Assembly (NCBI RefSeq): GCF_001436305.1
Contig: NZ_AZFO01000022.1
Location: 1 to 38,472 of the forward strand
Source of the DNA: Lactobacillus ultunensis DSM 16047
GTDB lineage: Bacteria; Bacillota; Bacilli; Lactobacillales; Lactobacillaceae
Direction of reading: 5' to 3'
DNA: 38,472 nucleotides
Every line of letters starts with the position of its first letter. Within the stretch, counting starts at the first letter, position 1. The position numbers were made by a program, and so were the translations under genes. Of the stretch, positions 6,418 to 38,472 are shown piece after piece. The notes beneath the pieces were generated by a model, which saw nothing but the letters and a program-made list of their open reading frames with translations, was not told the origin of the DNA and searched no databases.

Positions 6418-6503
6418 TCTTTTTTCTAATATTTTTTGCTTGTTCCCCTTCCTTTCTTGAACAGTTGTTTGATATAATTTTTGGAAGAAAGGAGGGAACA
6501 AAT

Positions 6504-18494: not shown

Positions 18495-19216
18495 TGAGCT
18501 TAAGAATTTTAATGGTAGAAGATGACACTTCCGTCGCTGAGATGATGGGAATGTTTTTCAAAAAAGAAGGTTGGGAACAAGATATTGCTGTCGACGGTGT
18601 CGAAGCCGTCGATATGTTTAAGAAAAATGCAGATAAATATGATTTGATTACGCTAGACTTGAATTTGCCTAAGAAAGATGGCATTCAAGTGGCTAAGGAA
18701 GTGCGAGCAATCTCACCGACTGTGCCAATCATCATGCTTACTGCAAGGGGCAGTGAATCAGACCAAGTGTTGGGATTAGGCATTGGTGCTGATGAATATG
18801 TCACGAAGCCCTTTAGTCCACTGGCATTAATTGCTAGGATCAAGGCTCTTCATCGTCGAATTATGATGAAAGAAGAGATAGCTCCTAAAACGGAAGCTAA
18901 GCAGGACTACGATATTGAAACTAATCATTTGAAGATCTCTAAGAACAGACGTGAGGTTATGTTCGATGATCAGCCTGTGACTGATTTAACGCCGAAAGAA
19001 TTTGACTTGCTTTATACAATGGCTCAGAAGCCGAAGCAAGTCTTTTCGCGTGATCAGCTTTTGGAATTAGTTTGGGGCTATGAATACTATGGTGAAGAGA
19101 GAACTGTAGATGCCCATATCAAGAAGCTGCGTCAAAAATTAGAAAAAGTTGGTGCTCAAGTGATCCAGACTGTTTGGGGCGTAGGCTATAAGTTTGATGA
19201 TTCGCAGGTTAAATAA
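18494..19216 (+). CDS. OmpR/PhoB-family response regulator
   Basis: 240 residues. Receiver domain at about 3-120: acidic pair in MVEDDTSV, phospho-acceptor Asp55 in LITLDLNLPKKDG, the Thr in IIMLTARG and Lys in YVTKPFSP. A linker follows, then a winged-helix DNA-binding domain at about 135-236 with LTPKEFDLLY, VFSRDQLLELVWG and RTVDAHIKKLRQKL. It is a transcription factor controlled by the histidine kinase encoded next. Both junctions are TAATG overlaps (18492-18496 and 19214-19218), so the SdpI-like protein, regulator and kinase are made together. The nearest downstream target candidate is the giant adhesin locus; that link is inference. Confidence 0.95.
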   Translation: MSLRILMVEDDTSVAEMMGMFFKKEGWEQDIAVDGVEAVDMFKKNADKYDLITLDLNLPKKDGIQVAKEVRAISPTVPIIMLTARGSESDQVLGLGIGADEYVTKPFSPLALIARIKALHRRIMMKEEIAPKTEAKQDYDIETNHLKISKNRREVMFDDQPVTDLTPKEFDLLYTMAQKPKQVFSRDQLLELVWGYEYYGEERTVDAHIKKLRQKLEKVGAQVIQTVWGVGYKFDDSQVK

Positions 19217-20673: not shown

Positions 20674-20674
20674 T

Positions 20675-20717
20675 AAAAGAGTGTCATACTTTCATTTTAG
20701 AAGGTATCACTCTTTTT
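20675..20717 (+). terminator. Terminator of the two-component operon
   Basis: AAAAGAGTG (20675-20683) pairs with CACTCTTTT (20708-20716). An inner stem ATACTTT/AAGGTAT is separated by a two-base bulge, and T-rich sequence follows. Confidence 0.8.
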
Positions 20718-20797
20718 ACTTTTACGTTATAATACTTTTTATTAATAAAAAAACATAATTATATTGTGCTAAATATTAATAACAGTATATTAAAAAG

Positions 20798-20806
20798 TGT
20801 TAAAAT
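20798..20806 (+). promoter_or_regulatory. Candidate extended -10 promoter of the adhesin locus
   Basis: TGTTAAAAT (20798-20806) is a TGn-extended -10 box 36 bases before the start codon. The -35 (TTAATA at 20776) is weak and at a long spacing of 19. Confidence 0.4.
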
Positions 20807-20842
20807 TACATTGTCAGGATAGATTATGGAGGTAAACTGCTT

Positions 20843-21532
20843 ATGTTTAATAAGTTACAAAGATATTCAATCAGAAAACTTACAATTGGTGCAGCTTCCG
20901 TTTTAATTGGTGTTACCTTTTTAGGTATCGATACAGAAATTGTGCATGCAGAGACAACTCCGACATCAGAAGAGACGATTACTGAACAAAATGAATCGCA
21001 AAGTGATGTAGAAAAAAATAATGCAGAGAATCATGAAACTAGTGATTCCCGCAAAGCCGGTGGCGGAGATACTGAACAAAATACTAATAACGAAAATAAT
21101 AAAAAAATCGAGGTTGAAAAGGGAGATACTGTCGATGACAGCTCCCTTATTTTACGTACAGCAAAAGATGTAGATAAAACAACTCAGACTAACAAGAACA
21201 ATAGTACTGAGAATAATCTAGAACAAGCCCAAAACAAAACAGGACAAAAATCTATCCAACCACCGTCAGAAGAACAAAATACTAACAACGAAAATAGTAC
21301 TAAACAACAATCTACTAATACTAAGCAAATAGATTCTGTAACAAATAAAGCAGACGATCTTCAAAAGGATGTATCAGATTCTAAGACCGTACAGACTAAG
21401 ACTGATGATCGAAAGCAAGATCAAAATCCAGATATTAAGGATATAAAGGATACTGCTGTTAAATCAGCTCCTGTAACTCTTGATTCTTTGACTAAAGCTT
21501 ACACTGAGTTAGGAAAAAATTTGCTTCAATGA
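20843..21532 (+). CDS. 5' part of the giant surface adhesin: YSIRK signal peptide and N-terminal linker
   Basis: 229 codons starting at ATG 20843 behind TGGAGGT. The YSIRK signal is plain: RYSIRKLTIGAASVLIGVTF, with signal peptidase cleavage expected after VHA at residue 36. This signal type sends proteins to the septal region of Gram-positive cocci and lactobacilli. Residues 37-225 are low complexity, rich in Asn, Gln, Thr, Lys and Glu, with repeated EQNTNNEN. The ORF ends at TGA 21530-21532, directly overlapping the long ORF in the -1 frame. On its own this piece would be secreted but has no anchor or binding domain. It is almost certainly the beginning of the downstream gene. Confidence 0.88.
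   Translation: MFNKLQRYSIRKLTIGAASVLIGVTFLGIDTEIVHAETTPTSEETITEQNESQSDVEKNNAENHETSDSRKAGGGDTEQNTNNENNKKIEVEKGDTVDDSSLILRTAKDVDKTTQTNKNNSTENNLEQAQNKTGQKSIQPPSEEQNTNNENSTKQQSTNTKQIDSVTNKADDLQKDVSDSKTVQTKTDDRKQDQNPDIKDIKDTAVKSAPVTLDSLTKAYTELGKNLLQ
21512..21532 (+). other. Frame-disrupting A6 run between the two adhesin ORFs
   Basis: GGA AAA AAT TTG CTT CAA TGA is read in the first frame. One extra A in the run (21514-21519) would give GGA AAA AAA TTT GCT TCA ATG, joining both ORFs in frame as GKKFASM. The same site has the form A AAA AAT, which allows a -1 ribosomal slip, and the run could also slip in replication or transcription. Confidence 0.8.
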
Positions 21533-24500
21533 ATGAGCAAGAACAGCATAATGCTTTGACTGACTTGAGGAAAAAGGTGAATCAGCTTTCAGTTGCTGAT
21601 CAGATTAAATTGGCTAGTTTTATTGGAACAGATGAAAGTCGTTATAGTACAAGTCTTGATGATATTAACTGGAACGGTGTTGGATACCTAGCTGGTATTC
21701 ACAAGACAGATCAGACTACAAGTGTGGATAATGACTTGGATCTTAGTGTGACGCAAAATGACTTTAACTTACATTCTAAAGAAGGACTCGCTTCAGGTTA
21801 CTCATATAGTTTTGAATGGGCTAATCCAACTGCTTCTCACCAGTTTAATGATAAAGGCTATGTGCAACTTGGCATTAAAGGAACTTTAACTCATGCTGGT
21901 AGAACGGTTCAAACTAAGACTTGGACTTTTACCTTTCTTAAGAGGGGTATGAGTTATGCAGATTATTTTAATTCTGCAGATCAAAGTAAACTACAGGCTC
22001 TAACTCATGCTTTGGAGCCAAATTCAGTTCTAAATTCTGACCGTCAGTTAGCTGCTAGTCCACAAATTTTGACTAATATTACGGTTGATAACTGTTCATA
22101 TAGTGGTCAAGAATTAGCTGATGCGGGTATTTTAAATAATATTAGATGGTCGGGAGTGCATAGAACGCCAGCTTCTTCAGAGGGAAAAGAAGAGTGGACA
22201 CCAACTGCGGGGATTATTCTCCTATTTAGCGATAATTCAAGTACTGGTCAAATGAATGCATCGCTTACTATTCGTAGTACATTAGTCACAACAGCCATTT
22301 TTGCTACAACGCAGGGCAACAACACTTGGCACACTATTAATGTCGGTAATGGTATTGATGCGGGTAATGCAGTTAAAGGTGTTGGCAATGCAAGTCGATT
22401 AAGTATTTTCAGTCCAACTTATACTTGGTTAAAAGATATGCCTAATGTTACCCCTGGTATGACCGCGGCTCAGATAATTGCCAATCATAAATTAACGCAG
22501 GAAGATGTTAATAAGTTAGAAGCTGGTCCGCATACTTTATACGTATTAGTCTCATATACTGCTAAAGAATATCATAGTGGCGTAGCAAGTTCTCGTCCGG
22601 ATGGTTATCAAATTGTTAAAATTAACGTTAATAGCTTAAATCAGATTATTCATGTTGAACCACATTCACCAGTCAATGTGCATGTTGGTCAATTAAGTTC
22701 TGATTTTGATACTGATTCAGCAGCTGATCATATGTCTGCTTGGTATATTGGTTTTGATGGTCAGAAGAAAGATTTAATTATTGATCCAGGTAAATTTGGA
22801 CAAAGTAATTATCCAATTAAATCAATCATTTGGGATCAAAAGCCAGGTAGTTATGTTGATCCAACTACTCATCAATTAGATAATACTAAGGCATCAATTA
22901 AAGTTGTCTATGCTGATAGTGCATCGGATGAAGATGTAGATCAATCAATTATTACAATCGATCTGGATAAGGCAACAGCTAAAACTGGTTTGTCAATCAA
23001 TGGTGGAGATACTGTTAATAACAGTGCTGACTCTGCTTTGCAAAGTAGCACTAGTGTTGATAGCTCTCAAATTACCAGATGGCAACCTAGTTATGAATGG
23101 GTTTATGATCAAAATGGTACAGCGCTTGATGCCAGTCACCAATATGACACTAAGTGGAACAAGAATCATACTTCCTTTACTGGATATGTGAAGGTAACTT
23201 ACTACAAGGCTGATAGAGATGGTAATTTAGTACTAGAAAATAATCAAAAGGTTTATGACGGTTACCAAATTGTCCCAGTAAATATTAAGATTAAGTCAAT
23301 GGCTGATCAGATGGGTGTGCAACTATATAATGACCTTGATTACATGAACTCACACCCAATTACTAATAAGGATGATATTGAACCTCAATATAAGTTGACT
23401 TGGGGATGCAACATTCAAGAAGTTCACTGGAAAGCTGGCGTTAGCCAAGCTACAATTGATAAATACATTCGCAGTGTTGATCGGTTTGAGACTGCATATG
23501 AGCATAGTTTTCCGGTTCAAACAATCCACACAGATTCGCAAGGGAATAAGTATTATGTTGTAGTTCCCGGTATGAAGATTTTGTTTACTGATGGTTCACA
23601 GCTGCATTATGGGACTGATACGACGCCAACAATTCCTACGCGTGTTTATCCACCAGAAAACAAAAACACGACTGTCCCAACCTTTGTTGCTAAAGATATG
23701 GGAGCATTTAACAGTACATCTGCTAAAGGCCAATTAACTAATTTAGCTGAGTCTCTATTGGGGACTTATAAGCAAGATTACTACTGGGTAGTTAAAGATA
23801 GCAGTGTTCATCAACATACCCTTGAAGGTATCCCTGTAACTGGTTACCGTGCTTTAAAAGACAGCGATATTGCTAGTGCTGGTACTAAGAGTGATATCTA
23901 TGTTATGGTCAAGTACACCAAGGAACGTGGCAATGGTGAACCAGATGGCTACTACATGGTCAATGTGCCAATTAACTTAATTAGTGGTGTTTACACTGAT
24001 CCACAAAGTAAGACTTTTGATAATCAAGCTGTTACGGCTGATCAGATTGTGAATGAATTGAAAAGTGGCACCATGACCTTAAAGATGTCAGATGGTACAG
24101 CTTTGGCGATTCCGAGTGATTTGTCTAGTGCAGATATTGAATGGCTTGATAGTACTGGTGGTCCGCTGACTGATGCACCAATTTATGCAGGTAGCTATAA
24201 GTTTGAACTTTCACTTACTGGTTTTAACAAATTAAAGAATGCTAATACTGGCAAGATTTTTGAAAATACGTCAATTGATTATACGATCAAGGTAGCACCA
24301 GTTTCTGTTACCCTGAATGGTAAGGGTGAACGTGATTACAACGGTCATGTTGTTTCCACTGATGATTTAAAGAATGATAGTAGTGATCCAATTAAAGTAA
24401 TGTTTACATTTCCAGGTAACACTAGTGATAGTTATACTTTAGTTGATGGTGATTACAGTTGGTATACCAAAGATGGTAATAATTACGTTGCCTATAATAA

Positions 24501-27500
24501 CAATCTTGCTGGCTCTAATGGTGCACCAACTGGTGTCGGTACTTACTATTTGAAGATCAATGATACTGGTAAGCAAAATATTCAAAATTGGCTGAGGAGT
24601 AAGTTAGGTGATAAGTACTTCAACAGTTTAAAGTGGTCTCCTAGTTCATTTAGTGATGATAACTACGCTTCATTTAAGATTAACCAAGAAAAGGTTAAGT
24701 TTATTTTAGGTGGAGAAAGTTCTGGCGTTTATATTGGTTCAGCTCAAGCTATTAATAATATTAAATCTTTTGACAAGGGTGGCAGTATTTACTTCAAGAC
24801 TAATTATCCAGACTTCCAAAGTACTAATTTAGAAGCAGGCGATGTTGATTGGTACGATAGTTCAATGAATAAGTTGACTGGAGCCCCTACTGATGTTGGT
24901 ACTTACTACATTAAGTTGAAAGATAGCGTGATTAGTGATCTTAAAAATAAACTAATTCAAGCTGCAGGTTATGGCTTAGACGGTACAACACAAAATATTA
25001 CCTTTGAAGATAATGGAGTTGGTGGTCAAGCAACCTATAAGATCACTCCTTCATCAAATGTTGTAACTGTTTCTGGTACACAAACCAACGAATATAGTGG
25101 TAGCGAAATTAGTGTTGATTACCAAGCTGATGGAACTAACAGTGTCAAGGTTACTATTGCTAAGGCAACTGGTAATACTGATGGTAAAGTTGCAAGCTTG
25201 ACCGGAGTTACATTAACTTCAGGCGACTTCAAGATTGTTGATAATCCAGCTATTAATGTTGGCGATTACCACATTGTTTTAACCGATGCTGGTTTGAATA
25301 AGATTAAGAACGCTTTAGGTAGCAACTACGACATCACTAATGACGGTACAAAGTATGGTACGTTAACTATCACTCCAGCTGAAGCTTCTGCAAAATTAGC
25401 AGGTTCTAACCATAAAGATTACGATGGCAGTGCTGTAACTTTAACCGAAGTTAACAGTAGCACCGGTGATATTGAAGTCGCATTGACATATCCTGGTTCA
25501 ACTGCAGCTTCAACATACACGTTACATGCAGGGGACTACATCTGGTACAACGAAGATGGTTCTGAAGAATTAGCTAATAACGGAGCTGCTCCAACTAATG
25601 CCGGTACTTATACAATTAAATTAACTAACGCTGGAATCACTAATATTGAAAAAGCTATTAAGCAAAAGACTGATCCTAGTGGCGCAACTAAGTCTAATGT
25701 TAAATTTACTGATAAAGATGGCAACGGTACTATTCTCGGCTCAGCTAAATTTACTATTAATAAGCGTGCTTTAACTGATCTTACATTCTCTGGTTCAGAT
25801 TCTAAGACTTATGATGGTAGCGTAGGTACGATTGATCCAGCCAAGGCTAAGAACTGGACAGCTACAGGTTTGCAAAACAATGAAACTTTGAATGTTAGTG
25901 GCTTAACTGCTGATGACTTTAAGTGGGAAAGCGGCTCTGCTCCAACAAACAAAGGTGATTACAATATTGTTTTGAGCCAAAATGGTATTAATAAGTTATT
26001 ACAAAATAATAGTAATTACATCTTTAATTTAAATAGTGTTAAGATTGGCAGCCATGTAGTTTATACCATTAATCCTTCAAAGAACGTCGTAACTGTTTCT
26101 GGTACACAAACTAATGAATACACTGGTAGTGGAATTGGCGTTAATTACCAAGCTGATGGAACTAACAGTGTCAAAGTTACTATCGCTAAGGTAGCCGATA
26201 ACACTGATGGTAAAGCTGCAAGTTTAACGGGAGTTACCTTAACTTCAGGCGATTTCAAGATTGTTAATGATAGTGGCAATGATGTAACGGCTATAAATGT
26301 TGGTGACTATCGCATTGTTTTAACTGATGCTGGATTAAATAAGATCAAGAATGCCTTAGGTAACAATTACGATATCACTGAAGCCAGTGATAAGTACGGT
26401 AAGTTAACTATCACTCCAGCTGCTCAAATCAACATTCATTATGTTGATGTAACTGGTATCGCTAATAGTGCCAATTATGCAAGTCAAGGTAAGACTATTG
26501 ATAGTCAAGATAAGACTGTCACAAATGATCCAAATGCTGACTTCAGTTTGAGCGGTGTTTCAGATGCTTGGGACTACGGTAATGCAGATTGGGACTATGT
26601 AAGCAGCACTAATTTGACTAAGTTCCCTAACAATGGACAAACCACTACTGATGGCAACTACTACGTAGCTACTTACAATGTCTACTTAAAGGCAAAGGCT
26701 AATAATGATACTAAGACTTTGCATAAGACAGTTACCTATGTTGATGCAAATGGTAACCGTCTAGACGTAACTCAACCAACTGAAAGCAATTTAACTGTTA
26801 CTAAGACCCACAATCGTGGTGAATTTAACAGTAATGGTTCAGCTAAGTATGTTTGGACAATTTCCAACTTAGATAAGACAAGCTTTGATACTCTTGACTT
26901 CCCAGCTACATTGACTATTAAGGGCAAAACTGCTTACTTGAATTTGGATAGTAGTCATTTTGCCTACTCGCCAAATACTGGTTCAGCAATTAAGATTACT
27001 ACAGGATCTGATGGTCAAAAAGTTGTTACTCTTACTGCTGATCCTGATGCTGCTGATGGTACGATTTATAGCTTTACGCTTCCTTATGTAACGCCAGTAA
27101 TTACGCTTTCTGGCTCTGGAACTAAGGTCTACGGCAGTGCAGATACACCAACTGTAAAGCCAGCTTGGGATGAACAAGGTTTGTTGCCAAGTACTTCACT
27201 TGATACAAGTGGTTTGGTAAATGCTGATGGCACATTTAAGAGTCAGTACTTCACTTGGTATTTGCAAGGTGCTAACAATAATTTAACTGAAATAACCGGA
27301 ACACCAAAGAATGTTGGTACTTATGTCGTTAAATTGAATGCTGCTGGTTTGGCTAAATTGCAAGCTGACAATAGTAAGTATGCTGGTTTAACCAAGGATA
27401 ACTTCAGCGGTTCAATGACTTACACCATTACCCAAGCTGATGCTACTGCAACCCTTGGTGGATCTAACAGTAAGACTTATGATGGAGCAGCTGTAACTTT

Positions 27501-30500
27501 AGATGAAATTAACAGTAGAAATGGTGACATCAAGGTAACAGTTAGCTTCCCAGGTGTTACTGATGCACAAAAGACGATCACTTTAACAGCCAACGATTAC
27601 GTTTGGGATACGAGTGATGATCATGCACCAATTGATGCAAGTACCACACCTTACACGCTTAAATTAAGTATAACTGGTATTAGTCGGATTAAGAGCTTGA
27701 TTGAATCTGAAGCTGGCTCCGGTACCGATGCACAAGGCAACGAAGTGTCGAACGTTAAGTTTGCTGAAAATGCTGTTGGTGGTTCTGCTGAGTTTACGAT
27801 TAATGAAGGTACTGAAGATCGTTACATTCAATACCAATTTGTTGATGCTGATAAGAATGATTCAACAGTTGGTTCACCAGTTACTGTTTCAGGTAAAGCT
27901 GGTCAAAATGTCACAATTAGTGGATTAGATGTACCAACTCATTATGAATTGGCAACAGGTCAAACTATTCCAACAAGTATTACTTTCTTAGATCAATCAA
28001 CTGATAGTGCTAAACCAACAGTTGTTCAAATTAAGTTGGTTCATCAACATGGTGAGACTACTCAATATGAGACTCGTCAGATTACTGTTCATTATGTTTA
28101 TGGTGCTGGTGAACATGCTGGTCAAAAGGCCCATGATGATGCTGTTCTTGATGTTTACTACAAGAGAACTGGTGATACTGACTTAGTAACTAGCAAGATG
28201 GTTGATACAGCTCCATGGCTCTTTGACGGTAGTTACAATGCAGACGGATTTAGCAATGGCTATAAAGTTGTATCGGGAACTTGGACTTTGCCAACTTCAT
28301 GGAATCCGGTTGAGGCTGAAGTACCAACAATAGATGGCTATAAAGCATACTTAAATGGTGACTGGACAAAGAATAAAGATGATAAACAATCTACTGTTCC
28401 AGCCAATAAGTTTGTCTTTCCAAGTTACAATAACCCTGGAACTTCAGATACGAGTTTGAATTCAACTGCATATACCGATGCAGCAACTATTTATGAAGCT
28501 ACTCCAGAACATACAATTTACTATGTTCCAGCTGAACAAGTTGAAGGTCGAACAGTAACTGAACACTTCAAGAAATATGTCAGTGGCGACTTCAATGATC
28601 CAAATAGCTATACTGATGCAGATGTTGTAACTCTGCCAGATGGAACTAAGCAATCCTATGCTCAGATCAAAGTTTGGTATAAAAAGGATGCTACTGGTTT
28701 TGCAACCAATGGCAGTACCGATCCAAGTAAATGGAAAGCAACTTATGGCAGCTGGAAGTGGGATTCCACAGTTGGTGATGCATCTACACCAGGGTTTACC
28801 GTTATTTCTGGTAAAGGCTTATGGTCCGGTATTGCCAATGGTAGCGGTAACTCATGGGGGATTAGTTTTCCACCTTTAGATGGTTATAAAGCCATATCGT
28901 TAAAAGAAGACCTTAGCTATGGTAGCGGGACATTTGGTTCACCAATTAGTGGTGGATTTACTAATGCCACTGATCCGGCATGGTATTACCGGAATTCTTT
29001 GACTACCTTCTATATACCTAAGTCGTTATTAAGTAAAACTGTTACTAGAACGATTAAGATTACTAATCCGGATGGTACTGTTCGGTCTATTCCACAGAAA
29101 GTTACTTTTAATCGTGAAGCTCGATTAAATAATAATGACACAGTCGTTGTGCTTGGTGCCTTAAAGGATAATGTTTATCATTTCACTCCTGGTAATAATG
29201 TATGGAATTACAAATCAACTGATAGAGATGGCATTCCAACAGGTACCTGGGCTGAATATAACGTTACGAAGCCAGGGTACACCGCGCTTGTTGATGGAAA
29301 TGTAGCGACAAGTGTTACTGAAGCAACAGTTACACCAGATACTGCTGATTCTACTGTTGACGTAACTTACATAAAGAATTCTGGAACGATCACCATTAGT
29401 CATGATGAAGTTGATCAAACTTACACTGGGAATGCTGCTGATACAGTTATTCCAAGTGGCATAACACATGACATTCAGAAGAGTAATAATCTTTTAACTT
29501 GGCCTACTGGTGCTGAAAATGTAACTCTTGATAGCAGCGACTTCTCATTTGCCAATACGAATGGCGATATTCTGACCGATAAGCCAGTAAATGTTGGAAC
29601 TTACCATATTGTTTTGAATAAACAGGGTCTTGATAAATTTAAGAACCTTGATTCTAACTTTACTTGGAAGTATGATCCAAAGACTTCATATGTGGTTTAC
29701 AAGATTACCAAAGCTACACCACATGTTGCTTTCCAAGGTACAGGTTCTAAGACTTATGACGGATCAGCTTTGAGTAGTTCTGATTACAGCACTCAAATTG
29801 GTTTAGCAATAACTGATGCACCAAACGCTGGTAATGATCCAATTAGTTTAACTGCTGGTACAGATTATGTATGGACTAAGGGTAGTCATAAATACACCAC
29901 TGCACCTGTTGATGCTGGTGATTACACTATTGAATTAACTGATGCTGGTAAAAATAAGATCAAGGCAGCAACTGCTAATGGTGACAACCTTGATTGGGCT
30001 AATGCTGTTATTTCTGGTACTGGTACTTACACAATTAATAAGGCTGATGCCACTGTTAAGTTTGGTGGGGATGCTACTAAGACTTACGATGGTAGTGCAA
30101 TTAGCAACTATCAATTTAGTTACAATCCAACTGATGGTTTTAATGCTCCAGGTACCACAAGTACCAATTTTGCTTTAACTGCTGGTACTGACTACGTTTG
30201 GTACCAGACCGATAGCGAAGGTCACAAGACTGGCTGTGCTTTAACAAATGCTCCTGTTAATGTTGGTAATTACATTGTTGAGTTAACAACCGCTGGTATT
30301 AATAAGATCAAAGATATTAATAGCAGCAACTTGAACTGGACATCTATTACTGGAAGCGGGAATTATGACATTACTCCAGCTTCAGCTACAGCTACGATTG
30401 CTGGTAGCGCAACCGTTACCTATACTGGTTCACCTGCCGTGATTGATTATGGTTCAGCTTCTAGTCCAAATTACACAGTCACATTAAGCAATAATCAACA

Positions 30501-33500
30501 CTATACTTTACAAGCTGGTGATCTTGACTTTGTCGCTAACGATCACACTAATGCGAATAGCACCGGCTATGTTTTGAAATTAACTCAAGCTGGTTTGGAT
30601 CACATCAAAGCAGCTGAAGGAACAACTAACAGCAACTACACTTGGACATTTGATAGCACTGGTTCAAGTGCCAAGTTGATCGTTAAGAAAGCTGACGCTA
30701 CTTGGACATTATCTGGTGATAACAGCAGTCAATACACCAAGACTTATGATGGTCAGGATGTTTCAACAGCTGATACGGGTATGAAGGTAACGCTTGCTTA
30801 CCCAGATCCAGCTGGTAACAGTCATGATTACTTATTTGACACTTCTGATTATGAAATCAAAAACGCTGCAGGTACTGTAGTTTCTGAAATGAAGAATGCT
30901 GGCACCTACACGATTAGCTTGACTGAAAGTGGCATTAATAAAATCAAAGCTGTTCAAGCTGATAATCTTAACTGGTCAGGTTCTGGTCAGATTACCGTCA
31001 CAATCAATAAGAAGGCTTTAACTGATGTTTCCTTCTCTGGTTCAGATAGTAAGATGTACGATGGTACGGCAGGTGCAATTAATGCCGATAAGGCTGGAAA
31101 CTGGCAAGCAACGGGTTTAGTTTCTGGTGAAAACTTCAATGCAACTGGCTTAACTGATGCTGACTTCAAGTGGGACGGTTCAACTCCAACTGATGCTGGT
31201 AGTTATGAGATCGTTTTGAACGATGATGGTTTGCACAAGCTGCAAGCAAATAACGCCAACTATGACTTTAGCAAGGTTACTGGTCATATTGCTTACACGA
31301 TTGAGAAGGCTGATGCAACTTGGACTTTGTCTGGTGATAATAACAGTCAATACACCAAGACTTACGATGGTCAGGCTGTTTCAACGGCGGATATAGGCAT
31401 GAAGGTAACGCTTGCTTACCCAGATCCAGCTGGCAGCAGTCATAATTACTCATTTGCAAGTACCGATTATGAAATCAAGGACTCTGCAGGTACTGTAGTT
31501 ACTGAAATGAAGAATGCTGGTACCTACACGATTAGCTTGACCGAAAGTGACATCAATAAGATTAAGGCCATTCAAGCTGATAACCTTAACTGGTCAGGGT
31601 CTGGTCAAATCACGGTTAAAATCAATAAGAAGACCTTAACCGATGTTTCCTTCTCTGGTACAGATAGCAAGAAGTACGATGGTACAGCTGGAACAATCAA
31701 TGTAGATAAAGCAGGTAACTGGCAAGCAACTGGTCTGATTAGTGGTGAAAGCTTTAACGCCACTGGCTTGACTAATGCCGACTTCAAGTGGGACGGGTCA
31801 ACCCCAACTAATGCTGGTGATTACCAAATCATTTTGAATGATGATGGTTTACAAAAGCTACAGTCAATCAACGCTAACTATGACTTTAGCAAGGTAACTG
31901 GTCATATTGCCTACACAATTGAGAAGGCTAAGGCAACCATTAACTTGGCTGGTAGTCAAACTAAGGACTACAATGGTGAAGCTGGTACGATTGATGCATC
32001 TAACTTTACTCCAAGCGTAAAGACAGATAATGGAGTAGATTGGACGATTCCATCAACTACAACATTTGATAGCAATGACTTCATTTTTACCGATGATCAA
32101 GGCAATCAGATTACCGCACCTACAGCTCTTGGCGACTACCACGTTTACTTAAGCGCTAGTGGTTTGAACAAGATCAAGACTGATACTACTAACTATGATT
32201 GGGCTGATGGTTCTCTTGGTATTTACAAGATTCAAAAGAACAGTGATAGTACTGTTTCATTAACTGACGTTAGTGATGGTCAAAGTGAAACCTACAAGGG
32301 TTCTGCTTATGGCAATACTGATATTGATGTAAGTGACTACAAGCTGACTTTGCCAACTGGTTTCACTTACACCTTGCAAGCTAGCGATTTGGAATTTGTT
32401 CCAAGTACTGATGCCACAAATGTAGGTACTTACCATGTTGAGTTAAGTCAAGCAGGTAAAGATCACTTGAATGCCGCTGACCCAACACACTTTAGCTTCG
32501 ACTTTAGCAAGTTCAATGCAGGTGAAGGTACGTTTAAGATTACGAAGGCTTCAGCTTCCGCAGCCTTCTTAGGTAACGGTAGCAAGACTTATGATGGCAA
32601 TGCAATCAGTGGTTATGCACCAACGGTTTCAATTACCGCTCCAGGTGTTGTAGCTTCTGATAATCCTGCTTTGACTGCTGGTACAGACTATGTTTGGACC
32701 AAAGATGGTCACACTTACACTAGTGCTCCAGTAGATGCTGGCACTTACACAGTTGAATTAACTACTACTGGTAAGAACAAGATCAAGGAAGTCAACTCTG
32801 CTAACTTGACTTGGACTGATGCTGAAATTACAGGTACAGGAACTTATATCATTACCAAGGCTACGCCAACTGTTACTTTCCAAGGTGCAGGTTCTAAGAC
32901 TTACAACGGTTCAGCTTTAAATACTTCTGATTACACCACTCAAGTTGGATTAGCAATCACTGATGCACCAAACGCTGGAGAAAATCCAATTAGTTTAACT
33001 GCTGGTATAGATTATGTTTGGACTAAGGATGGTCATACATACACTACTGCACCTGTTGATGCAGGTACTTACACCATTGAATTAACTACTAATGGTAAGA
33101 ATAAGATTCATACCGCAACAGCGAATGGCGATAATCTTGATTGGCGTAATGCGGTTATTTCCGGTACAGGAACTTACAAGATTACCGAAGTAGCCGCAAC
33201 TGCTAATTTGTCAGGAGAAAATAATCGTGACTACAATGGCTCAGCTGTTTCAACTGCTGATTTGAACAACGGTGGCAATATCACAGTAACGATTGCTATT
33301 CCAAATAGTACCAAGACCATTTCTTACACTTTGCAAGATGATGATTACACTTGGACAGCTGGTTCTGCACCAACTGATCAAGGTAGCTACACTTTGTCAT
33401 TGAATAAAGCTAACGTATTGGCACACTTGAAAGCTCAGATCGCTGCAGATTCAACTTGGAAAGGCAACGTAGGTATTATTGCTTCTGCTTTGAGTGGTAC

Positions 33501-36500
33501 CGCAACATTTACGGTTAATAAGAAAGCTGCCACAGTTTCATTAACTGGATCTACTACTGTTACTTACGATGGCAATCAAGTTGAAACACCGCTTGCTCAA
33601 TTGAAAGACAAGATTAGTGGTACTGATTTAGTAAGTGGTCAAAGCTTAGACCTTTCAGGTTTAACTGCTGACGACTTTGATTGGTATGATGCATCTGGTG
33701 ATAAGCTGAATAATGCACCAACTGATCATGGTACTTACACAATTAAGTTGAACACAGCTGGCTTTGCTACCTTAAAGAATAAGAATACTAATTACAGTCT
33801 TTCTATTAAAGACGACCAAAATAGCTATAGTTATGAAATTAAGCAAGCTAAAGGTTCAGTAGCCTTAGATGGTTCACGGACTATCACTTTTGGTACTGCT
33901 GATCCAGATTACTACAAGCATTACAGTGTCACATTAACTACTGATCCAACTGCAATTCATGGCTTTACACCAAGTTATACTTTGCAAGCTGGCGATCTAG
34001 AATTCTCTAGCGACAATGGACGTACTTGGAGTACTTCTGTTCCAACAACCGTTGATACTTACCAAGTTAAGTTAAGCGATGCTGGACGCAACAATCTTAT
34101 TGCTGCTAACAAGGATAACGGTAATATTGACTGGCCAGCTAATAGCTTCACTGGCATTAAGACTTATATTATTGAAGCTGCTACTGCAACTGCTGCCTTA
34201 GGTGGTAACGCAAATATGACTTATGATGGTCAAGTTGCTGAGTTGAGCAACGTTAATAGTGGAAGTATCCAAGTTAATGTCACGATTCCAGGAACTACTG
34301 GTAATCATACTTACACTTTGCAAACTGGCGATTACACTTGGAACACGACCGGACGTGTAGCTCCAACTGATGCTGGTGATTACACAATTTCCTTTGACTT
34401 GACTGCAACTGGTAAGGCTCACTTAAAGAACTTTATCGATGGCATCGCAGGTGCAGGTAATGTAGATATTCCAGCTAGTGTTACTGGCACTGCCGACTTC
34501 AAGATTAAGCAATTAGCAATTACCGTTAATGAGGGCAATTCTGATGAAAAGACTTACGACAGTAATCCTGCTTCAATTAGTCTTGATACTTTGAAGAATA
34601 GTTTGAGCGGTAGTGGTTTAGTAAGTGGTCAAAACTTAGACACAAGTACTTTGACTGCAAGTGACTTTGATTGGTACCAAGGCACAACTAAGTTAACTGG
34701 TGCCCCAAGTGATGCTGGTGATTACACTATTAAGTTGAATGCTCATGGTTTACAAGCATTGCAAACTGCCAATAAGAATTACAGCTTCTCTGCAATAACT
34801 GGTGACTATGACTACACGATTAATCAGGCCAATGCCACAATTAAGCTTGATGAAGCAACTAACCAGCAAACAGCAACTTGGGATGGTAATAATATCAGCT
34901 TAGATTTAACTAAGTTCCAACCATCTATTACAACTGATAATAGTCACCAAGCAACAATTGATTTACCAAGTACTTTAACTTTGACTGCTGGTGACTATCA
35001 AATTACCCAAGATGGCACAGTTAAGACGCCTAAGGAACCTGGAACCTATACAGTTAAATTGACTGAACAAGGCTGGCAAAAAGTTCGGGATGCAATTACT
35101 GGTCATGATAATTACAACTGGAAGTCGACTGGCTCAGGTAAGTTGATCATTAATAAAGCTACTGCAACAGCTAAGCTAAGTGGTTCAGGCTCGGTTACTT
35201 ATACTGGTTCCATCGCTCAGATTCCATATCCTGGTAGTTATGAAATTACTTTGAGTAATGGTGAACGCTATATAGTTCAGTTTGGTGATCTTGAATTTAT
35301 TTCAGGAAATAATCCAGTTAATGTTGGCGATTATAGAGTTAAATTATCTAATGCTGGTTTGCGTCATATCTCTGAAGTAGAAGGTAATCATTATGATTAT
35401 ACGTATGATAATAGTACAGCTATTTTAAGTATTACTCCTGCTTCTGCTACTGCAACACTTGAGGGTACTGGTCAGCATGATTATGACGGTTCTGTTGCTT
35501 CCTTGAGTGAAGGTCGCTATAGTGTAGAATTAAGTAATGGTATGACTTACAATCTTCAACCAGGTGATTATACTTGGGCAACTGGCACAGTTCCAATTGC
35601 TGCTGGTACGTACAATATTAGTTTAACAACGCAAGGTAAGAATCATATTAATGCTTTGACAACTGTTGGCACTACAAATAATTATGATTGGACATTTGCA
35701 TCAAATGCTAACTTTAAGGTTGCTCAAATGCCGGTAACTATTACTGTTTCTAACAATGGTCGCAACGGACAAAGTGTTGTTTATGGTCAGCCAATGACAA
35801 TTGATCCAAGTCATTATCAAGTTATTATTACAACTGAAGATGGTCGGACTTTAACTGGTTGGACTCCTTTAGCTGGTGACCTCCAATTTGAGGGAGCTAC
35901 TCCAGTTAATGTTGGGGATCAATATAAGGTCATTTTATCAGAACAAGGTATGCGAGGTATTAAGGCAGAATTTGGTATAAGAAATTATACTTACAAGAAG
36001 ACTGGTAATGGTAACTTCACTGTAACGCCAGCTAAAGCAACCATCACTTTAATTGGTGATGATAATATGATTTACAGTGGTAACCCTGCAGGTCTAAATG
36101 CAAGTAAGTACAGATTAACTTTGCCTAGTGGATTTACTCATACATTGACGAATAGTGATTTACAATTTATTGATGCTAGAGGCAATCAGATTGATCCGCC
36201 AACTAATGTTGGTGACTATCATGTTGCTTTAACAACCACCACATTAAATGCAATTGAGGCTCTGGATGGTAATAATGGTAAGAACTATGAGTGGACAATT
36301 AAGCAAAACAGAGCCACTTACGAAATCAATAGGGCTTCAGAAATTATTATTCATTACCGCGATGTTAATGATGATAATGAACCAGAAAGTGGTTGGACAA
36401 GTACATCAGGTAAAGCTCTTGATCATGATCAAATTGTAGTCGGTACAGCTGGTGGTAGATTCAACTTGAATTCAGTCGGAGGTAAGTGGAATTACGTAGC

Positions 36501-38196
36501 TGCTTACTATGTCTTAGCTGGACAAAATGGTGTGAACTCTTTCCCAATTACTGGTGATATATCAAGTGATGGTAACTACTATGTAGGTAATTACTACGTT
36601 TACTTGAAACACTACATTGCAGAAACTGATAATCAACTACCAGGATCTGAAGCTTTGGTAAAGACTTTCACGAGAAAGATTGTTTACCGTGGTACTAAGG
36701 ACGACGGTAGAACTTATCAACATGCATATGGTTCTCCAACAGGTAGTTATGAGTACACTCAGACTGTAGTCTTTAAACGTAAGGCTTATGAGGATATGGT
36801 AACCAAACAAATTATTGGCTATACCGACTGGACTAGTGATCAGCCAGAATTTGAGTCTGTTGTTTCTAAGCGACCTAAGGACTTAACTTACAACTATATT
36901 GATAAGCCAGTTGTAGCCAGTCTAATAGTTAATCCTGAATCAACCAAAACTTATCTAGGAACAATAGTTGTAACATATCGTTATAGCGAAATTTATAACA
37001 GAACTTATGCTGTAACAGTTAATTACGTTGATGAGAACGGTCAAAAGATTAAAGATTCAACGATAACCGATAACTATCCGGATGATTCAGAGTATCAGAC
37101 TATTTATCCAACTACAATTACTACTTCTAATGGTCAGACTTATGAATTCGAAAAAATTTCTCCACATAGTGATTGGCCAAATGGTAAAATTGATGCGGCG
37201 GATGTGGAAGTAACTTATGTTTATAAATTGAGACAACCGACGGACATTAAGCATCTGGTAACTGTTTATTATATTGATAAGGATGGCATGCCAATCAGAC
37301 CACAAATTAGTTTGCCAGAAGAGTTTAAACCAGGTGAGTCATATGATGTTTCTGGTTATGAAACTGCAATAATTTATTATAATGGTGAAGAATATAGCTT
37401 TAAGGATGTTAAACGTGGTGATCAGCCAAATGGTAAAATCGCTAACAGCGATGTAACCGTAACCTTTATTTATCAGAAAATTTCAGATACGGATGAGTTC
37501 AAGGTTACGATTAACTATGTCGATGAGGATGGCAACGCCATCAAAGATCCGGTAATTGATAGTATGATTGATGGTGCTCACTATGATGTAACAGACTATA
37601 AGCCAGCTGAGGTCCAGTTTAACGGTCGGATTTATAGGTTCGATAAAGTTTTGGCTGGTAGTGATCCGGAAAATGGTACAATCCAAGATCGTGATGTAGT
37701 AATAACTTATGTTTATAGGTTAACTGATGGCATTGTGATAGGGCCAGCTCCAGCGCCTCAGCCGGGAGAAGAGCTAAAACTAAAACCTCAATCAGCACCA
37801 CAAGCGCCAGAGGTGCCGCAGGCTCCTACAGAGTCAGTACCAATTAAAGAATTAAAGCAGTCGACGTATGAGTTAACAAGACAGATTCCAATAGAACCGC
37901 AACAACCGATAAATAATAAGTATGAGCTAGCTCACTCACCACAGAAGTTTTCTAACAAAAAATCAACCAGAAAGGAAAATATCGTTAACCGTGCTCCCAA
38001 GAATAAGGTCTTGAATAATATGCCTAAGCAACCTGTAGTACCTGCAGTCAATGTAGTGAAGAAGACGCAAAGTAAGGATACTTTGCCACAAACAGGTGAG
38101 AAGCAAAATCAAGTAGGTTTGTTTGGTTTGATTGCCCTTTCATTTACAAGTATTATGTCCTTTTTGGGAATAGATCATAAGAAGAAAAAGAAATAA
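21529..38196 (+). CDS. Giant LPxTG adhesin with YDG/MBG-type, Mub-like and MucBP repeats (main part)
   Basis: 5555 codons with no signal peptide of its own; joined to the upstream ORF it would be 5784 residues (roughly 600 kDa). Order: a unique N-terminal region with three related modules (about 21530-23985); seven YDG/MBG-type beta repeats (23985-26425); a Mub-like block (26425-27085); two more repeats (27085-27805); a second Mub-like block (27805-29385); about 22 repeats (29385-36335); a third Mub-like block (36335-37000); three MucBP repeats (37003-37720); a Pro/Gln-rich stalk; LPQTG (38083-38097), a membrane segment and a Lys tail. Sortase A would link it to peptidoglycan. The likely role is binding mucus or other host or matrix ligands. 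ATG 21529 has no proper ribosome site, so independent translation is doubtful. Confidence 0.9.
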   Translation: MNEQEQHNALTDLRKKVNQLSVADQIKLASFIGTDESRYSTSLDDINWNGVGYLAGIHKTDQTTSVDNDLDLSVTQNDFNLHSKEGLASGYSYSFEWANPTASHQFNDKGYVQLGIKGTLTHAGRTVQTKTWTFTFLKRGMSYADYFNSADQSKLQALTHALEPNSVLNSDRQLAASPQILTNITVDNCSYSGQELADAGILNNIRWSGVHRTPASSEGKEEWTPTAGIILLFSDNSSTGQMNASLTIRSTLVTTAIFATTQGNNTWHTINVGNGIDAGNAVKGVGNASRLSIFSPTYTWLKDMPNVTPGMTAAQIIANHKLTQEDVNKLEAGPHTLYVLVSYTAKEYHSGVASSRPDGYQIVKINVNSLNQIIHVEPHSPVNVHVGQLSSDFDTDSAADHMSAWYIGFDGQKKDLIIDPGKFGQSNYPIKSIIWDQKPGSYVDPTTHQLDNTKASIKVVYADSASDEDVDQSIITIDLDKATAKTGLSINGGDTVNNSADSALQSSTSVDSSQITRWQPSYEWVYDQNGTALDASHQYDTKWNKNHTSFTGYVKVTYYKADRDGNLVLENNQKVYDGYQIVPVNIKIKSMADQMGVQLYNDLDYMNSHPITNKDDIEPQYKLTWGCNIQEVHWKAGVSQATIDKYIRSVDRFETAYEHSFPVQTIHTDSQGNKYYVVVPGMKILFTDGSQLHYGTDTTPTIPTRVYPPENKNTTVPTFVAKDMGAFNSTSAKGQLTNLAESLLGTYKQDYYWVVKDSSVHQHTLEGIPVTGYRALKDSDIASAGTKSDIYVMVKYTKERGNGEPDGYYMVNVPINLISGVYTDPQSKTFDNQAVTADQIVNELKSGTMTLKMSDGTALAIPSDLSSADIEWLDSTGGPLTDAPIYAGSYKFELSLTGFNKLKNANTGKIFENTSIDYTIKVAPVSVTLNGKGERDYNGHVVSTDDLKNDSSDPIKVMFTFPGNTSDSYTLVDGDYSWYTKDGNNYVAYNNNLAGSNGAPTGVGTYYLKINDTGKQNIQNWLRSKLGDKYFNSLKWSPSSFSDDNYASFKINQEKVKFILGGESSGVYIGSAQAINNIKSFDKGGSIYFKTNYPDFQSTNLEAGDVDWYDSSMNKLTGAPTDVGTYYIKLKDSVISDLKNKLIQAAGYGLDGTTQNITFEDNGVGGQATYKITPSSNVVTVSGTQTNEYSGSEISVDYQADGTNSVKVTIAKATGNTDGKVASLTGVTLTSGDFKIVDNPAINVGDYHIVLTDAGLNKIKNALGSNYDITNDGTKYGTLTITPAEASAKLAGSNHKDYDGSAVTLTEVNSSTGDIEVALTYPGSTAASTYTLHAGDYIWYNEDGSEELANNGAAPTNAGTYTIKLTNAGITNIEKAIKQKTDPSGATKSNVKFTDKDGNGTILGSAKFTINKRALTDLTFSGSDSKTYDGSVGTIDPAKAKNWTATGLQNNETLNVSGLTADDFKWESGSAPTNKGDYNIVLSQNGINKLLQNNSNYIFNLNSVKIGSHVVYTINPSKNVVTVSGTQTNEYTGSGIGVNYQADGTNSVKVTIAKVADNTDGKAASLTGVTLTSGDFKIVNDSGNDVTAINVGDYRIVLTDAGLNKIKNALGNNYDITEASDKYGKLTITPAAQINIHYVDVTGIANSANYASQGKTIDSQDKTVTNDPNADFSLSGVSDAWDYGNADWDYVSSTNLTKFPNNGQTTTDGNYYVATYNVYLKAKANNDTKTLHKTVTYVDANGNRLDVTQPTESNLTVTKTHNRGEFNSNGSAKYVWTISNLDKTSFDTLDFPATLTIKGKTAYLNLDSSHFAYSPNTGSAIKITTGSDGQKVVTLTADPDAADGTIYSFTLPYVTPVITLSGSGTKVYGSADTPTVKPAWDEQGLLPSTSLDTSGLVNADGTFKSQYFTWYLQGANNNLTEITGTPKNVGTYVVKLNAAGLAKLQADNSKYAGLTKDNFSGSMTYTITQADATATLGGSNSKTYDGAAVTLDEINSRNGDIKVTVSFPGVTDAQKTITLTANDYVWDTSDDHAPIDASTTPYTLKLSITGISRIKSLIESEAGSGTDAQGNEVSNVKFAENAVGGSAEFTINEGTEDRYIQYQFVDADKNDSTVGSPVTVSGKAGQNVTISGLDVPTHYELATGQTIPTSITFLDQSTDSAKPTVVQIKLVHQHGETTQYETRQITVHYVYGAGEHAGQKAHDDAVLDVYYKRTGDTDLVTSKMVDTAPWLFDGSYNADGFSNGYKVVSGTWTLPTSWNPVEAEVPTIDGYKAYLNGDWTKNKDDKQSTVPANKFVFPSYNNPGTSDTSLNSTAYTDAATIYEATPEHTIYYVPAEQVEGRTVTEHFKKYVSGDFNDPNSYTDADVVTLPDGTKQSYAQIKVWYKKDATGFATNGSTDPSKWKATYGSWKWDSTVGDASTPGFTVISGKGLWSGIANGSGNSWGISFPPLDGYKAISLKEDLSYGSGTFGSPISGGFTNATDPAWYYRNSLTTFYIPKSLLSKTVTRTIKITNPDGTVRSIPQKVTFNREARLNNNDTVVVLGALKDNVYHFTPGNNVWNYKSTDRDGIPTGTWAEYNVTKPGYTALVDGNVATSVTEATVTPDTADSTVDVTYIKNSGTITISHDEVDQTYTGNAADTVIPSGITHDIQKSNNLLTWPTGAENVTLDSSDFSFANTNGDILTDKPVNVGTYHIVLNKQGLDKFKNLDSNFTWKYDPKTSYVVYKITKATPHVAFQGTGSKTYDGSALSSSDYSTQIGLAITDAPNAGNDPISLTAGTDYVWTKGSHKYTTAPVDAGDYTIELTDAGKNKIKAATANGDNLDWANAVISGTGTYTINKADATVKFGGDATKTYDGSAISNYQFSYNPTDGFNAPGTTSTNFALTAGTDYVWYQTDSEGHKTGCALTNAPVNVGNYIVELTTAGINKIKDINSSNLNWTSITGSGNYDITPASATATIAGSATVTYTGSPAVIDYGSASSPNYTVTLSNNQHYTLQAGDLDFVANDHTNANSTGYVLKLTQAGLDHIKAAEGTTNSNYTWTFDSTGSSAKLIVKKADATWTLSGDNSSQYTKTYDGQDVSTADTGMKVTLAYPDPAGNSHDYLFDTSDYEIKNAAGTVVSEMKNAGTYTISLTESGINKIKAVQADNLNWSGSGQITVTINKKALTDVSFSGSDSKMYDGTAGAINADKAGNWQATGLVSGENFNATGLTDADFKWDGSTPTDAGSYEIVLNDDGLHKLQANNANYDFSKVTGHIAYTIEKADATWTLSGDNNSQYTKTYDGQAVSTADIGMKVTLAYPDPAGSSHNYSFASTDYEIKDSAGTVVTEMKNAGTYTISLTESDINKIKAIQADNLNWSGSGQITVKINKKTLTDVSFSGTDSKKYDGTAGTINVDKAGNWQATGLISGESFNATGLTNADFKWDGSTPTNAGDYQIILNDDGLQKLQSINANYDFSKVTGHIAYTIEKAKATINLAGSQTKDYNGEAGTIDASNFTPSVKTDNGVDWTIPSTTTFDSNDFIFTDDQGNQITAPTALGDYHVYLSASGLNKIKTDTTNYDWADGSLGIYKIQKNSDSTVSLTDVSDGQSETYKGSAYGNTDIDVSDYKLTLPTGFTYTLQASDLEFVPSTDATNVGTYHVELSQAGKDHLNAADPTHFSFDFSKFNAGEGTFKITKASASAAFLGNGSKTYDGNAISGYAPTVSITAPGVVASDNPALTAGTDYVWTKDGHTYTSAPVDAGTYTVELTTTGKNKIKEVNSANLTWTDAEITGTGTYIITKATPTVTFQGAGSKTYNGSALNTSDYTTQVGLAITDAPNAGENPISLTAGIDYVWTKDGHTYTTAPVDAGTYTIELTTNGKNKIHTATANGDNLDWRNAVISGTGTYKITEVAATANLSGENNRDYNGSAVSTADLNNGGNITVTIAIPNSTKTISYTLQDDDYTWTAGSAPTDQGSYTLSLNKANVLAHLKAQIAADSTWKGNVGIIASALSGTATFTVNKKAATVSLTGSTTVTYDGNQVETPLAQLKDKISGTDLVSGQSLDLSGLTADDFDWYDASGDKLNNAPTDHGTYTIKLNTAGFATLKNKNTNYSLSIKDDQNSYSYEIKQAKGSVALDGSRTITFGTADPDYYKHYSVTLTTDPTAIHGFTPSYTLQAGDLEFSSDNGRTWSTSVPTTVDTYQVKLSDAGRNNLIAANKDNGNIDWPANSFTGIKTYIIEAATATAALGGNANMTYDGQVAELSNVNSGSIQVNVTIPGTTGNHTYTLQTGDYTWNTTGRVAPTDAGDYTISFDLTATGKAHLKNFIDGIAGAGNVDIPASVTGTADFKIKQLAITVNEGNSDEKTYDSNPASISLDTLKNSLSGSGLVSGQNLDTSTLTASDFDWYQGTTKLTGAPSDAGDYTIKLNAHGLQALQTANKNYSFSAITGDYDYTINQANATIKLDEATNQQTATWDGNNISLDLTKFQPSITTDNSHQATIDLPSTLTLTAGDYQITQDGTVKTPKEPGTYTVKLTEQGWQKVRDAITGHDNYNWKSTGSGKLIINKATATAKLSGSGSVTYTGSIAQIPYPGSYEITLSNGERYIVQFGDLEFISGNNPVNVGDYRVKLSNAGLRHISEVEGNHYDYTYDNSTAILSITPASATATLEGTGQHDYDGSVASLSEGRYSVELSNGMTYNLQPGDYTWATGTVPIAAGTYNISLTTQGKNHINALTTVGTTNNYDWTFASNANFKVAQMPVTITVSNNGRNGQSVVYGQPMTIDPSHYQVIITTEDGRTLTGWTPLAGDLQFEGATPVNVGDQYKVILSEQGMRGIKAEFGIRNYTYKKTGNGNFTVTPAKATITLIGDDNMIYSGNPAGLNASKYRLTLPSGFTHTLTNSDLQFIDARGNQIDPPTNVGDYHVALTTTTLNAIEALDGNNGKNYEWTIKQNRATYEINRASEIIIHYRDVNDDNEPESGWTSTSGKALDHDQIVVGTAGGRFNLNSVGGKWNYVAAYYVLAGQNGVNSFPITGDISSDGNYYVGNYYVYLKHYIAETDNQLPGSEALVKTFTRKIVYRGTKDDGRTYQHAYGSPTGSYEYTQTVVFKRKAYEDMVTKQIIGYTDWTSDQPEFESVVSKRPKDLTYNYIDKPVVASLIVNPESTKTYLGTIVVTYRYSEIYNRTYAVTVNYVDENGQKIKDSTITDNYPDDSEYQTIYPTTITTSNGQTYEFEKISPHSDWPNGKIDAADVEVTYVYKLRQPTDIKHLVTVYYIDKDGMPIRPQISLPEEFKPGESYDVSGYETAIIYYNGEEYSFKDVKRGDQPNGKIANSDVTVTFIYQKISDTDEFKVTINYVDEDGNAIKDPVIDSMIDGAHYDVTDYKPAEVQFNGRIYRFDKVLAGSDPENGTIQDRDVVITYVYRLTDGIVIGPAPAPQPGEELKLKPQSAPQAPEVPQAPTESVPIKELKQSTYELTRQIPIEPQQPINNKYELAHSPQKFSNKKSTRKENIVNRAPKNKVLNNMPKQPVVPAVNVVKKTQSKDTLPQTGEKQNQVGLFGLIALSFTSIMSFLGIDHKKKKK
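22336..23985 (+). repeat. Triplicated N-terminal module (about 100 aa)
   Basis: Three diverged copies lie at about 22336-22644, 22990-23295 and 23680-23985. Each has a Y-x-W motif (PTYTWLKD, PSYEWVYD, DYYWVVKD), then VLVSYT/VKVTYY/VMVKYT, and ends in a DGY-x-(I/M)V-x-(V/I)N(I/V) strand (PDGYQIVKINVN, YDGYQIVPVNIK, PDGYYMVNVPIN). The family is not one I can name. Confidence 0.55.
25057..26421 (+). repeat. Repeat pair (25057-25380 and 26083-26421)
   Basis: Two closely similar units share VTVSGTQTNEY, YQADGTNSVKVTIAK, LTGVTLTSGDFKIV and VLTDAGLNKIKNALG. The second carries a five-codon insertion after FKIV. Two unrelated YDG units lie between them. Confidence 0.85.
29704..33180 (+). repeat. Dispersed 330-bp repeat pair (29704-30033 and 32851-33180)
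   Basis: Both copies are exactly 110 codons and share LAITDAPNAG, NPISL/DPISLTAG, YTTAPVDAG, ATANGDNLDW and AVISGTGTY. They are separated by about 2.8 kb of other units, so recombination between them could delete a multi-unit block in frame. Confidence 0.85.
30691..31926 (+). repeat. Tandem 618-bp duplication within the repeat array
   Basis: Copy 1 is 30691-31308 and copy 2 is 31309-31926, each exactly 206 codons and covering two YDG units. Both start ATWTLSGDN and end VTGHIAYTIEKA at the protein level, with only scattered substitutions. This is the youngest visible duplication in the gene. Confidence 0.9.
37003..37720 (+). repeat. Three MucBP repeats
   Basis: Copies lie at about 37003-37230, 37252-37477 and 37498-37720. 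Each begins V-x-(V/I)-x-Y-(V/I)-D-(E/K)-(D/N)-G and ends NG-x-I...DV-x-(V/I)-T-(Y/F)-(V/I)-Y, the MucBP signature of lactobacillus mucus-binding proteins. Confidence 0.85.
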
Positions 38197-38285: not shown

Positions 38286-38300
38286 GGCTCTTTGTCAAAC
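38286..38300. other. Possible insertion-sequence terminal repeat
   Basis: GGCTCTTTGTCAAAC resembles the outer ends of ISL3-family elements, which commonly begin GGCTCTTT. If real, the element extends to the right beyond the window. From memory of the family only; the partner end is not in the window. Confidence 0.3.
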
Positions 38301-38312
38301 ACCCTAAAGTAT

Positions 38313-38356
38313 AAAGGTAGATAGAAAGATGACGATGTTTTTATCTACCTTTTTTC
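38313..38356. terminator. Terminator hairpin after the adhesin gene
   Basis: AAAGGTAGATA (38313-38323) pairs with TATCTACCTTT (38342-38352) and T residues follow. Outer bases AGTATAA/TTATACTT can extend the stem past a bulge. It could also stop a leftward transcript. Confidence 0.7.
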
Positions 38357-38451
38357 TTATACTTAGATTGAGGTTGAGGTCGACAACAGAATGGAATATT
38401 GAATTCGACTGTCAAACGGGCCCATAAATATTTATTTTCAATCAAACTAGA
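38341..38451 (-). pseudogene. Leftward coding remnant at the window edge
   Basis: On the minus strand an open stretch of 36 codons reads IENKYLWARLTVEFNIPF, then CCRPQPQSKYKKKGR and a stop at 38341-38343, inside the hairpin. The charged end looks like a protein C-terminus. A stop codon lies just upstream in this frame, and a neighbouring frame stays open to the window edge (SEIHTLNLV), so a frameshifted gene, possibly a transposase, is one reading. Too short to identify. Confidence 0.28.
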
Positions 38452-38472
38452 TTAAGGGTGTGGATCTCAGAG

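Follow-up and report, generated by a model that had tools for sequence, protein, structure and literature searches.

A probably real frame break separates the signal peptide from the body of a giant MBG-repeat adhesin in Lactobacillus ultunensis

Introduction

Many large mucus-binding genes are reported as pseudogenes in the accessible portion of the LAB-Secretome survey, a set of genes in which YSIRK signals are frequent within the L. acidophilus group (PMC3017865). According to the same portion, these proteins share with the gene described here a YSIRK signal, an LPXTG anchor, a very large repeat body and frequent frame breaks, as well as fragments that are mistaken for intracellular proteins, although it is MUB or MucBP repeats that define the LAB-Secretome families, whereas the body described here consists mostly of MBG repeats with three MucBP domains (PMC3017865). 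The other MBG adhesins of Lactobacillus have a signal, linker, MBG repeats and anchor in common with it and occur in both intact and broken versions. They contain 14–23 MBG repeats in nine intact relatives, compared with 31 here, and they differ in the head region, for which the present protein has almost no matches among them.

InlA of Listeria monocytogenes is an anchored surface protein. As described in the available part of one study, a length-variable 5' poly(A) tract in inlA breaks the protein, so that in both cases a surface protein is interrupted at a short poly(A) tract close to its start; tract variation has been measured in inlA, whereas the run of six A residues (A6) described here is known from one length in sequence (PMC2831843). 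The same text notes that runs are biased to the 5' end of genes in prokaryotes at large (PMC2831843). The sortase-dependent pili of Bifidobacterium breve are switched by replication slippage in a G-tract, as far as the available text of that work describes (PMC9187656); they also concern a surface protein of a commensal with a tract as the site of proposed slippage, but there the tract is of G residues and mixtures were measured, whereas the A6 is known from its sequence alone (PMC9187656).

Here we analyse an adhesin gene of Lactobacillus ultunensis DSM 16047 in a stretch of 38,472 nucleotides, referred to as the window, which comprises in full contig C21 of a draft genome of 2.16 Mb in 105 contigs. 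No paper that we recognised as describing this gene was found in the literature searched, as far as the texts were available. The frame break is newly described and probably real, and breakage of this kind is already known in broken large YSIRK mucus-binding genes.

Results

The gene is divided between two open reading frames on the forward strand. ORF1 (positions 20843–21532, 229 aa) encodes a YSIRK signal peptide followed by an N/K/T/Q-rich linker and terminates at a TGA (21530–21532); a GGAGG at 20828–20832, 10 bases 5' of its ATG, is presumably a Shine-Dalgarno-like site. ORF2 (21529–38196, 5555 aa) encodes the adhesin body and overlaps ORF1 by the four bases of an ATGA stop-start, with an AGGA lying 14 bases 5' of the ORF2 ATG; a signal of its own was looked for in ORF2 and none was found. 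Both frames and their overlap are exactly as described in an earlier note on this DNA, which also correctly reported that the large part lacks an export signal while carrying the anchor. The body frame contains no stop in 5555 codons, compared with 321 and 898 when this stretch is read in its two alternative frames, and is therefore coding rather than open by chance, in agreement with the 16.6 kb free of stops that the note had claimed. Signal and anchor are not in one reading frame (YSIRK is in ORF1 and LPQTG in ORF2), and we accordingly class the gene solely as a broken member of the YSIRK-LPXTG MBG/MucBP adhesins.

Upstream, the body frame is closed by a TGA at 21505–21507, and the forward-strand interval 21508–21532, the sole stretch open in both frames, contains the break. 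The A6 run (21514–21519) lies inside this interval and places a repeat tract at a frame break near the 5' end of the gene; it is one of five runs of at least six in 20843–38196, three of which are in ORF1. The note attributed the break to one missing A. The run is present in the overlap, but its shortening by one base is something that we infer, no intact sister allele having been found.

The YSIRK signal (PF04650; 20849–20926, forward strand, E 8.2e-13) is the sole match listed for the genome. ORF2 is composed, in order, of a head region, MBG repeats, a Muc_B2 domain, three MucBP domains and an LPQTG anchor. A family search places 31 MBG repeats (PF17883) within 23992–36330 on the forward strand, and all 31 MBG copies found by this search of the genome fall in this gene. 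A domain search, with residue positions converted to coordinates, locates a Muc_B2-like domain (PF17966) at 36655–36981 and the best of the three MucBP domains (PF06458) at 37501–37719, both on the forward strand. Beyond the LPQTG sorting motif (38083–38097, forward strand) come a hydrophobic stretch and a tail rich in lysine; the Gram_pos_anchor match is marginally above its cut-off (20.2 versus 20 bits). Inside the MBG region, one portion of the body matches PDB 4ng0 (E 1.8e-9), named by its depositors the LAR_0958 cell surface adhesin, which is a single solved domain of 97 residues resembling that part of the region. A fold predicted for the head (600 aa, 3 sequences) had a mean pLDDT of 34.6, too low to use.

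Nine MBG adhesins of the genus have signal, linker, repeats and anchor region in one frame of 3577–4631 codons. From this architecture, together with the absence of a signal from ORF2 and of an anchor from ORF1, the two ORFs are likely to be pieces of a former single gene, as the earlier note proposed; the contrary arrangement, orthologues made up of two separate genes with a second signal peptide, was not seen in the loci examined. The large size ascribed to the adhesin also stands, but not a place among the very largest without rivals, given the lengths of these intact relatives and a 12,445-codon open frame in G003. This frame (G003:C1, L162–L164) starts with an FGFRK-type signal and has repeats of a different type; G003 is a weak profile match and has no MBG by profile.

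In the protein database, the head is closest to P0005 (73%, 1421 aa) and P0006 (43%, 2006 aa). P0006 continues in one frame from a signal-like N-terminus (judged by eye) through a linker into the head and aligns with ORF2 from residue 85 onward; it carries no listed YSIRK domain, and its C-terminal end is without an anchor. P0005 ends abruptly, and its N-terminus is uninformative because the protein starts inside the head. No junction-spanning homologue was found in the loci surveyed, neither the final 60 residues of ORF1 nor the initial 80 of ORF2 having a match there. The head had no match outside its own genome among those listed by the genus profile search, and two weak partial matches (E 2.6e-5 and 5.4e-5) among 60 genomes. 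A search for orthologues by DNA patterns matched eight stretches in genome contigs, none of which was confirmed, and returned nothing from viral contigs; positions 19001–23000 had no match in the plasmid collection.

Ahead of the adhesin gene lie genes for a response regulator and for a histidine kinase; their best matches, PieR and PieS, score below the cut-off. Because in nine of 11 related loci the kinase directly adjoins a reverse-strand gene of about 710–745 codons, with no adhesin, the adhesin is, judged by gene order, an addition at this genomic place; the remaining two loci end at the kinase. The genome has its own copy of the 710–745-codon gene (Sulfatase family) on contig C42. For a transporter gene, the best matches in other genomes reach 85% identity. 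Downstream, positions 38286–38472 are an interspersed repeat, which recurs with 94% similarity on C62 and partially on C42, and as an 84% partial match on C60. We rejected this repeat as a marker of adhesin genes; its copy on C42 comes after a subtilase gene.

Database searches recovered two proteins that bear on the break. P0003 is 5555 residues long with a start identical to that of ORF2, and it is not merely the same contig again because three of its residues differ. Its truncated body, seen at the protein level, places the lesion in more than one sequence, and its start hints that here, too, the frame is closed immediately 5' of it. A search with ORF1 returned P0004 alone, and no 229-residue stub. 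The first 131 residues of P0004 (145 aa) are common with ORF1, and its last 13 are encoded in another frame of the window from 21244, after which comes a stop; five bases are absent, equivalent to one of two adjacent copies of AAAAC (21236–21240, forward strand). By its sequence, P0004 is another broken N-terminal allele. Thus two broken N-terminal alleles and no continuous-frame or intact sister allele of the species were found in the protein database, which is clustered at 90%, so that a longer sister could in principle sit among the 10 members. Cluster representatives are usually the longest member. With no intact sister allele of the species found, the loss is judged from more distant relatives.

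Breakage is common among these relatives. The genus profile search matched 21 of 74 relatives (22 of 75 with the own genome), and 20 relatives gave 24 MBG-adhesin loci; G034 and G028, weak matches in the 60-genome search with no MBG by profile, were excluded, and G081:C1:645530 lies outside the set. Nine loci are intact (G016a, G008, G094, G089a, G007, G006, G013, G021 and G025; G007 ends in LPQTD instead of LPXTG), three are cut by a contig end or N and uncut as far as seen (G016b, G095 and G088), eight have one or two lesions (G081, G089b, G030, G011, G070a, G070b, G020 and G096, with G020 and G070a beginning at an end of the stretch read), and four are remnants (G062a, G062b, G064 and G027), giving 12 of 24 broken or remnant. 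The eight loci with one or two lesions hold 10 in total, a count that leaves internal frame changes of the remnants aside. Seven are in-frame stops (G089b, G070b, two in G030, G011, G070a and G020) and three are frameshifts (G081, G096 and G070a), where the longest runs are 3, 3 and 5, respectively. With remnant G027 included, the stop codons are TAA (4), TAG (3) and TGA (1). G081 (L138:484-13693) has a layout like that of the window, with a 529-codon YSIRK signal frame overlapping a 3881-codon MBG frame and no homopolymer above 3 at the junction. Since the lesions are mostly in-frame stops and the frameshifts are not at runs of at least six, homopolymer slippage does not look, from these sequences, like the general cause of breakage in the family.

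In G030, G011, G089b and G070b (L146, L147, L144 and L151) the in-frame stops have long clean frames on both sides, and three of the four genomes are single-contig. For the window and the six loci with both ends seen, the first lesions fall at 4, 12, 12, 22, 24, 44 and 58% of the gene; we do not claim a 5' bias from seven positions, which are too few.

As a control for assembly quality we sampled 15 stretches of the own genome plus the initial 20.8 kb of the window (315 kb; contigs below 1 kb dropped). Full-length homologues were available for 79 of 252 ORFs of at least 120 aa, and these 79 contain 94 runs of at least six; no run-associated frame break was found among these sampled genes. Compared with the ORFs of the single-contig relative G062 (836 kb read), three breaks were found here in 66 matched genes, and in the reverse comparison six breaks were found in G062 in 70 matched genes. 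The three here, named by our own reading of the proteins in this sample, are frame changes in a glycerol-kinase-like gene and an IS605-type gene, neither at a run of at least six, and an in-frame stop near the end of a regulator. Against a wider reference set the sole frame change found is that of the glycerol-kinase-like gene, and it lies at no run. This frame change, on contig C16 (L183, near 17507), is probably a real small deletion. At 6465–7680 of the window lies an IS605 OrfB/TnpB-like gene (364 aa), the last part of which is in another frame relative to one relative.

Homopolymer runs were also counted in adhesins and in ordinary genes, and are given as observed versus expected. ORF1 has 3 runs of at least six versus 1.6 in shuffles (P 0.18), which is not a significant excess of tracts, and ORF2 has 2 versus 7.2 in synonymous shuffles. 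In 12 relatives (nine intact, three uncut), runs of at least six number 19 versus 24.9 in the first 690 nt and 41 versus 79.0 in the rest, and runs of at least seven number 7 versus 9.2 and 1 versus 17.6. A control set of 238 ordinary genes (mechanical ORFs of at least 400 aa with no YSIRK-like motif) has 231 versus 304.4 and 187 versus 365.1 runs of at least six in the first 690 nt and the rest, respectively, and 41 versus 87.9 and 18 versus 107.2 runs of at least seven. The adhesin N-terminal parts are thus slightly above ordinary genes only for runs of at least seven, and on seven runs. We rejected N-terminal run enrichment as a sign of switching, as ordinary genes are alike in direction; the distribution marks where slippage would fall and not its use.

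Discussion

The reading that we favour, and hold to be rather probable, is that the window gene belongs to an adhesin family prone to breakage and has itself lost its function through a genuine, recent break, and that its body would not reach the surface. Slippage in the A6 run would have given rise to the lesion. Translation would start at ORF1 behind the GGAGG and end at 21530–21532, and the product, a signal peptide and short linker with no anchor, would be secreted and lost; the body would at best be translated by reinitiation, and would be neither exported nor anchored. A body stop-free over 5555 codons in both the window and P0003 is unlike a long-dead gene and counts against loss. The lack of further decay fits only a young break, since about 7.2 stops are expected per 1% neutral change in the body; if the body has been released from selection, the break would be younger than about 0.4% neutral divergence (at the 95% level). 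The earlier note took the open frame as a sign that selection keeps it so, but an open 16.6 kb is no proof of current selection and indicates a young break.

An assembly or sequencing error, in which the strain has a continuous gene and the contig is short of a base, would be natural to suspect at a homopolymer site in an otherwise clean frame of a 105-contig draft. We regard it as unlikely, as the same truncated body occurs in P0003, a different sequence (3 of 5555 residues), and the sampled genes with their 94 runs show no run-associated break. Two separate genes coupled through the ATGA overlap would account for the stop-start arrangement but leave a body that has an LPQTG anchor and no signal, where nine relatives have one gene, and this possibility is scarcely credible. 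Programmed frameshifting or transcript slippage that bypasses the break to yield some full-length protein has in its favour an A_AAA_AAT in the signal frame at the junction, which we take to have the slippery X_XXY_YYZ layout, and a longer piece around the site whose fold is slightly more stable than that of shuffled sequence (z -1.53; 12 of 200 shuffles did as well). RNA from the site onward, however, folds like shuffles (z -0.03 and 0.19), with neither a stimulatory structure nor a conserved site apparent; A_AAA_AAT is only slightly depleted relative to six synonymous shuffles (132 versus 159.5; A_AAA_AAA, 76 versus 150.2), and no such site is present at the other junctions read. Heptamer counts and folds thus lend a programmed frameshift little support, and we consider a bypass very unlikely, although strand-slipping is raised for broken mucus-binding genes in the accessible portion of the LAB-Secretome survey (PMC3017865).

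Reversible on/off export through slippage in the A6 or the AAAAC pair within a population is a further proposal, and one for which tract precedents exist in the available accounts of InlA (PMC2831843) and the B. breve pili (PMC9187656). Three of the five runs of at least six lie within the first 4% of the gene, two different lesions affect short repeats inside the same 230 codons, the body frame is open in two sequences (the window and P0003), and runs of at least seven are nearer expectation in adhesin N-terminal parts (7 versus 9.2) than in ordinary genes (41 versus 87.9). Against this, A6 is short, N-terminal runs of at least six in the 12 relatives are not above synonymous shuffles, ordinary genes have the same 5' bias, and no continuous-frame allele was found; moreover, in-frame stops account for seven of the 10 lesions in relatives, and the three frameshifts (G081, G096 and G070a) are at short runs. 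The on/off control put forward in the earlier note is therefore unsupported, and we think it improbable. The more elaborate suggestion that display of the roughly 5800-residue adhesin is switched by slippage in the A-rich repeats of the linker, with purifying selection clearing runs from the 16.7-kb body (2 versus 7.2) so that breaks stop export at least cost, is similarly doubtful.

The frame break in the window gene is probably real, and is part of a wider habit in which 12 of 24 related loci are broken or remnants. Because breakage is so common in the family, signal-less giants in such genomes should be suspected of being broken surface proteins rather than intracellular proteins. Were the N-terminal repeats to act as a switch, surface attachment in a commensal bacterium would be under an on/off control that is easy to measure.
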